From Mucilaginibacter sp. (GTDB taxonomy: Bacteria > Bacteroidota > Bacteroidia > Sphingobacteriales > Sphingobacteriaceae), in contig NZ_JANYGH010000019.1 of the NCBI RefSeq assembly GCF_025362475.1, positions 1-64,000 of the forward strand: a stretch of 64,000 nt of DNA, written 5' to 3'. Positions 5,676-42,451 of the stretch are shown one piece after another. Positions within the stretch are counted from its first letter, which is position 1. Every line of letters begins with the position of its first letter. The position numbers and the translations under genes are program-made. Under the pieces are notes generated by a model that ran no database searches, was not told the origin of the DNA, and saw only the letters and a program-made list of their open reading frames with translations.

Positions 5676-5763
5676 TTCCGTCATTGCGAGGTACGAAGCA
5701 ATCCCCGATTTGCAAATCCGCTCTGCATAGTTTGGGATTGCTTCGTGCCTCGCAATGACGGGT
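5676..5763. repeat. Palindromic repeat (CGTCATTGCGAGG family)
   Basis: The arms at about 5680-5706 (gtcattgcgaggtacgaagc...) and 5734-5761 (...gcttcgtgcctcgcaatgac) are nearly perfect reverse complements around a centre of about 27 bp, so the RNA or single strand folds into a long hairpin. A fragment of the same family is visible near 56,837-56,860. It lies between hemL and hemB and is flanked by AT-rich and CCTTT-rich word repeats (5612-5672 and 5780-5842). Confidence 0.75.
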
Positions 5764-8689: not shown

Positions 8690-8830
8690 AAAGGTTAAAG
8701 GGGAAAGGTTAATGGGGGAAGGGAGAAGGGAAATAAAAAAGGGGCTGTCCTGCTGAGCCTGTCGAAGCATGTGGGCAAAGGCCTCTGCGCGCGCCCTTCG
8801 ACAAGCTCAGGGTGACAAGCCTTTTTAGAA
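8690..8830. repeat. Palindromic repeat, CCTGAGCCTGTCGAAG family, reverse orientation (copy 1)
   Basis: After a purine-rich run (8690-8740), a unit at about 8736-8826 has arms ctgctgagcctgtcgaag and cttcgacaagctcaggg around the centre catgtgggcaaaggcctctgcgcgcgcc. It is the reverse orientation of the copies at 42,116-42,205 and 42,350-42,437 and shares their centre sequence. It fills the spacer upstream of hemC. Confidence 0.8.
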
Positions 8831-41663: not shown

Positions 41664-41727
41664 AAAAAGAGGCCTGTCATCCTGAGCCTGTCGAAGGATG
41701 CGCGCAGAGGCTTTTGACTACATGCTT
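41664..41727 (+). repeat. Left half of the CCTGAGCCTGTCGAAG palindrome (copy 2), upstream of the GIY-YIG gene
   Basis: The sequence follows the full copies (aaaaagaggcctgtc, ctgagcctgtcgaagg, cgcgcagaggc, ctacatgctt) up to the middle, then changes into unique DNA where the second arm cgacaagctcagcagg should come. The GIY-YIG gene begins 30 bp further on. Confidence 0.75.
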
Positions 41728-41757
41728 AACATCGGCTGTTATTTAGATCATTATCAT

Positions 41758-42048
41758 ATGAACCATTATCATGTCTATATTTTGCTTTGCAGCGATGGCT
41801 CATATTATACGGGCATTACCAATAATATGGAGAGAAGGCTTATCGAACATCAATCGGGAGAAAATAAAGACTGCTATACTTTTAAGCGGAGACCTGTAAA
41901 GCTGGTCTTTAATGAAGTATTTAACGATGTTAATCACGCAATTGCATTTGAAAAACAAGTTAAAGGTTGGCGGCGAGCAAAAAAAGAGGCCATTATAAAC
42001 GGGAACTGGGATTTATTACCGGAATTATCAAAGGCAAAAGGCCTGTAA
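41758..42048 (+). CDS. GIY-YIG nuclease-domain protein (YhbQ-like)
   Basis: From ATG 41,758 the protein has 96 residues and is a bare GIY-YIG domain: YHVYILLCSDGSYYTGITNNMERRLIEH has the two motif tyrosines and the catalytic Arg, followed by the conserved Glu in AFEKQVKGWRRAKKE and an Asn near the end (INGNW). The longer reading from 41,698 starts inside the repeat. The last codons and stop (AAA GGC CTG TAA) are made by the next repeat copy. Single-domain proteins like this are common in Bacteroidota; the target is unknown. Confidence 0.85.
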   Translation: MNHYHVYILLCSDGSYYTGITNNMERRLIEHQSGENKDCYTFKRRPVKLVFNEVFNDVNHAIAFEKQVKGWRRAKKEAIINGNWDLLPELSKAKGL

Positions 42049-42100
42049 CCCTGACTTTGAAGGGCGTGCGTGGAGGTCTTTGCGCACATGTTTTGACGAA
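42037..42100 (+). repeat. Degenerate half-copy of the palindrome behind the GIY-YIG gene
   Basis: aaaggcctgtaaccctgact..., ttgaagggcgtgcgtggaggtc and gcgcacatgttttgacga follow the left arm and centre of the full copies with many changes and lack the right arm. It overlaps the 3' end of the nuclease gene. Confidence 0.65.
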
Positions 42101-42115
42101 TTATTGTATAGCGTA

Positions 42116-42205
42116 AAAAGCCTGTCACCCTGAGCCTGTCGAAGGGCGCGCGTAGAGGCCTTAGCCTACATGCTTCGACAAGCTCAGCAGGACAGCCCTT
42201 TTTTT
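42116..42205 (+). repeat. Full palindrome, CCTGAGCCTGTCGAAG family (copy 3)
   Basis: Arms gcctgtcaccctgagcctgt and cttcgacaagctcagcagga are imperfect reverse complements around gggcgcgcgtagaggccttagcctacatg. A T run follows on the plus strand, so it could also terminate transcription. Confidence 0.8.
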
Positions 42206-42258: not shown

Positions 42259-42437
42259 TGTTTGTAAACGTAAGCACATTCTAAAAAGGCCTGTCCTCTT
42301 TTTAAATCATCATTTCATCTTCATGTTTGTAAACGTAAGTACATTTTAAAAGGGCCTGTCACCCTGAGCCTGTCGAAGGGCGCGCGCAGAGGCCTTTGCC
42401 CACATGCTTCGACAAGCTCAGCAGGACAGCCCTCTTT
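42259..42437 (+). repeat. 37-bp direct repeat, one copy with and one without the palindrome (copy 4)
   Basis: 42,259-42,295 and 42,324-42,360 match at 34 of 37 bases (tgtttgtaaacgtaag...ggcctgtc). The second continues into a complete palindrome unit (to 42,437, ending ggacagccctctttt), while the first goes directly from ggcctgtc to ctctttt. The first therefore looks like the second minus the palindromic core. Confidence 0.75.
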
Positions 42438-42451
42438 TAACCTTCCCCCTC

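Follow-up and report, generated by a model that had tools for sequence, protein, structure and literature searches.

The window analysed here, a stretch of 64,000 nucleotides from a Mucilaginibacter sp. genome, contains a gene for a small GIY-YIG nuclease surrounded by copies of a palindromic repeat. This arrangement raises the question of whether the nuclease and the repeat belong together and, if so, what the enzyme might do to the repeat. Sequence comparison shows the nuclease-repeat pair to be real and sequence-specific. The gene lies amid its own repeat, and we consider it rather probable that predicted nicking of the repeat's hairpins by the nuclease drives repeat spread and turnover.

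The nuclease gene and its repeat

The nuclease gene (41758..42048, plus strand) encodes a protein of 96 amino acids with a single domain, GIY-YIG (Pfam, 67 bits). Pfam finds no Y1 transposase domain in this protein, and a search with NCBIfam profiles matched no family. Its homologues share the ATG at 41758 as protein start, and an earlier start at 41698 was corrected; the stretch 41698-41757, which is partly derived from the repeat, therefore lies outside the conserved protein. Invariant among 14 homologues are Y6, Y16, R26, H30 and E64 (numbered without the first Met), which we take to be the conserved catalytic-type residues. The AlphaFold2 model of the protein has a mean pLDDT of 91, and the closest solved relatives in sequence and fold are the UPF0213/YhbQ-type proteins 1zg2 and 1ywl, followed by SLX1. 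Homologue searches, some of which used the query without the first Met (41761-42045, 95 amino acids), found a single nuclease of this clade in the organism's own 6.45 Mb draft genome; some relatives hold two (loci L069 and L070). At G113:C1:2472617-2476512 there are eight GIY-YIG matches, the first seven spaced by exactly 358 bp, which form a tandem array of a small nuclease gene. The homologue at G082:C6:1028918-1029192 appears as two overlapping partial matches and is probably disrupted; its genome nevertheless keeps 37 class I arm matches (loop classes are defined below).

Repeat copies are present in the window beyond chance, with 10 arm matches at up to three mismatches compared with 1.19 expected. 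The two full copies that the initial annotation had placed after the gene are found on the plus strand at 42115..42204 (tag to tag 42123-42194) and 42349..42438 (93% identical to the former), and the reversed copy that it had also described, a full member of family A, lies at 8746..8817 on the minus strand. A remnant at 42259..42320 (plus strand) consists of the joined flanks of a copy from which both hairpins are missing, and its left joint lies directly behind the TGTC tag. Rfam lists four matches, the best with an E-value of 0.058 and all far under the gathering scores.

The copies that adjoin the gene are decayed. The left copy (41667..41729, plus strand) retains the left arm and the centre; divergence starts 7 nt inside the right arm, after CATGCTT at about 41729, and the segment 41667-41756 is 64% identical to the reference copy over 90 nt. 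Its TGTC-tagged hairpin unit (41675..41699, plus strand) reads TGTC-ATCC-TGAG-CCTGTC-GAA-GGAT. At the other end of the gene, a degenerate copy (42037..42100, plus strand), in which the tag has decayed to TGTA, does supply the last codons and the stop as initially described, providing from about 42037 the triplets GGC CTG TAA with the stop at 42046-42048. Two half-copies do flank the gene, but each is a left half and both point the same way; the gene therefore does not interrupt a single palindrome.

Two units arranged as an inverted dimer make up a full copy, and a unit is laid out as TGTC, a 4-nt stem, TGAG, a specifier of 6 or 7 nt, GAA and the stem complement. The stem differs between the two units of a window dimer but is self-complementary in each of them, and the unit itself is therefore palindromic, not only the dimer. 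In 63 distinct units (one per locus, drawn from 89), Watson-Crick pairing is found 57, 59 and 61 times at stem positions 2, 3 and 4, compared with shuffled maxima of 35, 31 and 54; the outermost pair, pair 1, has no covariation in this set (34 vs 35.3 shuffled). The stem of the hairpin thus shows compensatory changes. Folded as DNA strands, the three window dimers have z-scores of -2.0 to -2.9 (-2.75 for 42115..42204, -2.03 for 42358-42428 and -2.89 for the reversed copy), two single units fold weakly (-0.57 for the unit of the left copy, and -1.66), and a control stretch without repeats gives -1.87. The tag is TGTC in 327 and CGTC in 12 of 339 units near 93 nuclease genes, as found with a search pattern that demanded one of these two tags and left others uncounted.

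Family A, the family of these copies, has 48 forward and 48 reverse exact arm matches in the 6.45 Mb draft genome, with none for a reversed-pattern control, and the forward and reverse arms are mostly paired at a distance of 43-46 bp, forming head-to-head dimers. We read 42 dimers, 24 of which belong to a longer subfamily (mean identity 0.92 over 150-bp segments) and 18 to a shorter one (0.79). The repeat is dispersed through intergenic DNA: outside the window, 0 of 39 copies lie inside an open frame of at least 150 amino acids (about 400 bp inspected on each side for most), and several copies show T-runs outside the arm. One A-family copy (G000:C13, L006 714) is located 182 bp upstream of a gene for an exonuclease/GIY-YIG fusion, and an A dimer (G000:C72:44176) about 360 bp downstream of uvrC. 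For a family of about 48 copies in 6.45 Mb, either placement would be unusual by chance, and proximity to a GIY-YIG domain thus extends beyond the cognate gene.

Pairing of nucleases and palindromes

To the nuclease-repeat link proposed by the initial annotation, loci from related genomes lend strong support. Among the best 80 matches, chosen by protein similarity alone, 76 have a hairpin tagged TGTC or CGTC within 200 bp of the nuclease gene, and 58 have one on both sides. The enrichment is confined to the immediate vicinity: the adjacent 150-bp bins contain a unit at 69 of 79 and 64 of 80 of these loci, compared with 0-2 of 74-78 loci for bins at 1-3 kb. Of the remaining four loci, L143 has a unit 207 bp away, and the flanks of L100, L127 and L138 hold, by eye, palindromes with an altered tag or loop. 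The correlation of nuclease clade with repeat type, described below, and the occurrence of several pairs in one genome point in the same direction.

The organism's own genome encodes UvrC, the exonuclease fusion, four single-domain GIY-YIG proteins and one fragment, the last two groups representing four divergent GIY-YIG types. Each of these five genes, the fragment included, is flanked within 300 bp by its own palindrome starting with GTCAT: family A at C63 (the 48 + 48 exact arm matches), family B at C57 (12 exact matches genome-wide), family C at C44 (108 matches genome-wide) and family D at C52 and at the C27 fragment (33 matches with up to three mismatches). Patterns of the other three families are absent within 1 kb of the five genes in all 15 combinations (for family C, among 100 of the 108 matches, which cover all relevant contigs), and reversed-pattern controls for all families gave 0. 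A match to the A arm with two mismatches at the C44 locus sits within the C-type repeat of that locus. In the window itself, a C-type repeat start (TGTCATCCTGAACGCAGTG) at 111-136 ends early.

A further abundant palindrome family that carries a tag, family E, is represented in the window by the dimer CGTCATTGCGAGGTACGAAGCAATC at 5679-5760 and has 101 genome matches with at most two mismatches; no GIY-YIG gene was found beside family E palindromes in this genome. The orphan family E and the A copies near uvrC and the fusion gene argue against a simple rule of one enzyme for one repeat. A RAYT-like Y1_Tnp gene (L006 2344-2883) adjoins the exonuclease/GIY-YIG fusion gene, and upstream of this gene pair there are GTAGAGACGC palindromes, whose tag differs from TGTC.

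By loop sequence, the repeat units divide into classes I (CNNGTC), II (CGNAGTC) and III (GNNCTC), with a few of class Ib. Mapped onto a nuclease tree of 93 non-redundant sequences (80 + 22 loci minus 9 duplicates; four rows without a class and one fitting none), loop class requires 16 changes compared with a shuffled mean of 45.1, and 0 of 200 shuffles was as low, in agreement with the expected match of nuclease clade and repeat type. The association persists among close relatives: 19 Weeksellaceae loci require 2 changes vs 7.8 shuffled and 12 Chryseobacterium loci 2 vs 5.3 (0 of 500 shuffles as low in both cases), and in Epilithonimonas caeni two nucleases, one of class I and one of class III, are each accompanied by hairpins of their own. 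Host kinship is therefore no explanation for the matching. Within 20 Mucilaginibacter loci there is no tree signal (5 changes vs 5.8; 80 of 500 shuffles as low). The nearest units on the two sides of a gene are of the same class at 52 of 58 loci. Class I arm matches range from 0 to 96 per genome in 151 genomes of the family; a count of at least five is reached by all 8 genomes that have a class I nuclease locus but by only 21 of the 143 others, the loop class of the nuclease being known only in genomes with fetched loci. These 21 genomes count against the pairing.

Among the columns of the nuclease alignment, column 93, near the C-terminus, is the most informative on loop class, and loop class is largely predicted by the residue at this position. 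Arg93 is present in 14 of 15 class III nucleases and 1 of 73 others, Cys93 in 30 of 32 class II nucleases and 1 of 56 others. L114, located within the class III clade, has Ser93 and class I hairpins. Of the nucleases unlabelled in the tree, L127 has Arg93 and, by eye, a class III hairpin in its flanks, L106 has Arg93 and a GAG...CTC stem that closes a longer loop, and L100 and L138 have Asn93 and Lys93. In sign tests on a tree built without the protein tail, an average of 3.9 of 4 well-supported independent pairs agree for class III and Arg, with none opposite (p 0.125), and 3 of 5 for class II and Cys (p 0.25); these pairs are too few for significance.

Fixed genes and changing repeats

Among the best 80 loci, 68 locus pairs share the same flanking genes on both sides and 13 on one side; this synteny extends, for type I, over Chryseobacterium, Epilithonimonas and Elizabethkingia and, for type II, over Flavobacterium. 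The nuclease gene is inherited at fixed loci within several genera. An insertion sequence, considered as another candidate, is contradicted by the single clade gene in the genome and by this synteny.

The repeats behave differently at orthologous sites. We compared two spacers that contain A dimers with 22 loci of related species; nine loci were read, four were one-sided, and nine with overlong gaps were left out (L196, L199, L200, L201, L204, L208, L209, L217 and L218). The first spacer holds none of these families in G194 (167 bp vs 337) and a D-type palindrome in G188. The second holds none of them in G136, CGTCATTGCGAG types in G170 and G186, a C-like palindrome in G194, B-like palindromes in G177 and G162, and an A-type together with another TGTCATGCTGAG palindrome in G166. 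Such replacement of one palindrome family by another, or by none, amounts to turnover. Target-site duplications and exact insertion boundaries were not readable in the compared spacers, because these are too diverged. Spread driven by the nuclease, which the initial annotation had raised as a possibility, gains indirect support from this turnover, from the avoidance of long frames by all 39 copies and from the approximately 92% identity of the 24 longer dimers, although movement itself is inferred.

Related systems and alternative explanations

The combination of an enzyme gene at fixed loci, clade-matched tagged palindromes alongside it and dispersed inverted dimers resembles REP/REPIN-RAYT systems, with a GIY-YIG domain in place of Y1 and a TGTC tag in place of GTAG. 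A second likeness is to the Ssn family, reportedly described by Chenal, Veyrier and colleagues (Nature Communications, 2025) as site-specific single-stranded GIY-YIG nucleases. Ssn is said to cut only single-stranded DNA, at its own sequence, with NTS repeats beside the genes, and an effect on natural transformation in Neisseria is reported to be part of this work. As the family is reported, the likeness extends to a small protein with a single GIY-YIG domain, a cognate repeat that adjoins the gene and has many genomic copies, and specificity that depends on the homologue; the window nuclease has the single domain, and its repeat both adjoins the gene and is dispersed. Set beside Ssn as reported, the genome of the window has four types together, inverted dimers, and families that turn over at orthologous sites. 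The best reading is that the window nuclease is a site-specific GIY-YIG nuclease of the kind reported as Ssn, and RAYT-like; the new part, which we infer, is the RAYT-like role in repeat spread. The statement in the initial annotation that the pairing had no established description is probably wrong in view of Ssn. A literature search, with most subscription papers and all of bioRxiv outside its scope, returned no paper pairing GIY-YIG genes with such repeats among the matches listed.

The repeats also resemble those of a wider group. According to a 2013 survey, CGTC-tagged palindromes with TGTC and CCTC variants are found in five phyla and apparently lack a dedicated transposase (PMC3733652). 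As described there, this CGTC REP superfamily shares with the window repeats the CGTC/TGTC tag, a short hairpin, mostly head-to-head dimers and intergenic location, and is characterized by AT first and second stem pairs, a 4-5 nt loop and a CCA tail, whereas in the window units the second stem pair varies, the loop is larger and the CCA tail is missing. Pair 1 is A-T in 52 and pair 2 T-A in 32 of 89 units, and the loop is longer.

Of 44 records of plasmid-borne GIY-YIG loci found, we read 12. In Azospirillum lipoferum and Rhizobium CIAT894 the GIY-YIG gene is flanked on either side by textbook CGTC repeats, and Spirosoma, Planktothrix, two Methylobacterium, Sphingomonas parapaucimobilis and Sinorhizobium have, by eye, related palindromes starting with TGTC, CCTC or GTTC. 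AT stem pairs, a 4-5 nt loop and a CCA tail are present, by eye, at L186 and L189, and the Azospirillum and Rhizobium repeats fit the CGTC REP superfamily of the survey (PMC3733652). In Azospirillum lipoferum 4B the GIY-YIG gene and its CGTC repeats (L186 1489-1782) lie inside the suf operon, in the gap between sufB and sufC, and in Planktothrix agardhii (L192) the gene, with TGTCATTCTGAG repeats, has an MmeI-type restriction enzyme on one side and the DISARM helicase gene drmA on the other. Four of the 12 plasmid loci are without such a repeat, namely two yazA/UPF0213 orthologues, Cupriavidus and Sphingomonas paeninsulae; the two yazA orthologues belong to a conserved operon, where no repeats were seen, while the window nuclease has different neighbours. 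Homologues without a repeat, which the initial annotation had named as evidence against the link, are therefore encountered outside the clade.

Other explanations have to be weighed against repeat spread by the nuclease. The pair might control DNA exchange by cutting incoming or exposed single strands at the repeats, with the repeats themselves spreading by other means. This would account for the same pairing and specificity data and for a gene at fixed loci, as expected for a host function, and would agree with the reported effect of Ssn on natural transformation; alone, however, it leaves both the turnover of whole families at orthologous spacers and the switching of loop classes together with the nuclease unexplained, and we regard it as rather unlikely. 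Highly improbable, in our view, is a homing endonuclease gene inserted in its own palindromic target, with the half-copies representing the two parts of the split site. Of 17 loci that have exactly one hairpin on each side within 300 bp, 15 do show hairpins that enclose the gene with their tags outward, and L042 and L043 have inverted repeats of 32-37 nt (95-97%) around it; yet each of the two half-copies in the window is a left half and both face the same way, the genome has one clade nuclease despite about 48 targets, homologues remain at the fixed syntenic loci described above, and homing does not multiply palindromes.

The nuclease might also be a bystander to ordinary intergenic palindromes or terminators, or to repeats moved by the genome's Y1 transposase. 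The absence of examined copies from long frames and the T-runs outside several arms would be compatible with terminators, and a Y1_Tnp gene is present, with an A-family copy upstream of its neighbour gene. We give this explanation hardly any credence, since it conflicts with the proximity, the clade matching and the association with the loop residue, and the palindromes near the Y1 gene carry a different tag.

We therefore return to spread by the nuclease itself. The 96-amino-acid protein is predicted to recognise the TGTC-tagged hairpin units of its own repeat and would nick these units in single-stranded form, at the TGTC tag or close to it. Tagged inverted dimers could then be copied to new sites through cutting and repair, and nicking would likely drive both the spread and the turnover of the repeats. 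Such a system would work like REP/RAYT, with a GIY-YIG enzyme replacing the Y1 transposase. More tentatively, and with somewhat less than even confidence, we speculate that the mobility enzymes missing for CGTC/TGTC-tagged palindromes are single-domain GIY-YIG nucleases, which would form an independent counterpart of REP/RAYT with several orthogonal pairs in one genome and a specificity switched by one C-terminal residue.

With residue 93 and the hairpin loop named, the question becomes testable with one small protein and synthetic oligonucleotides. A GIY-YIG gene beside CGTC-type repeats addresses the apparent lack of a dedicated transposase noted in the survey (PMC3733652). If the proposal is true, these nucleases would give REP-like repeats a second enzyme system, unrelated to the first, and would be a source of small sequence-specific hairpin nucleases.
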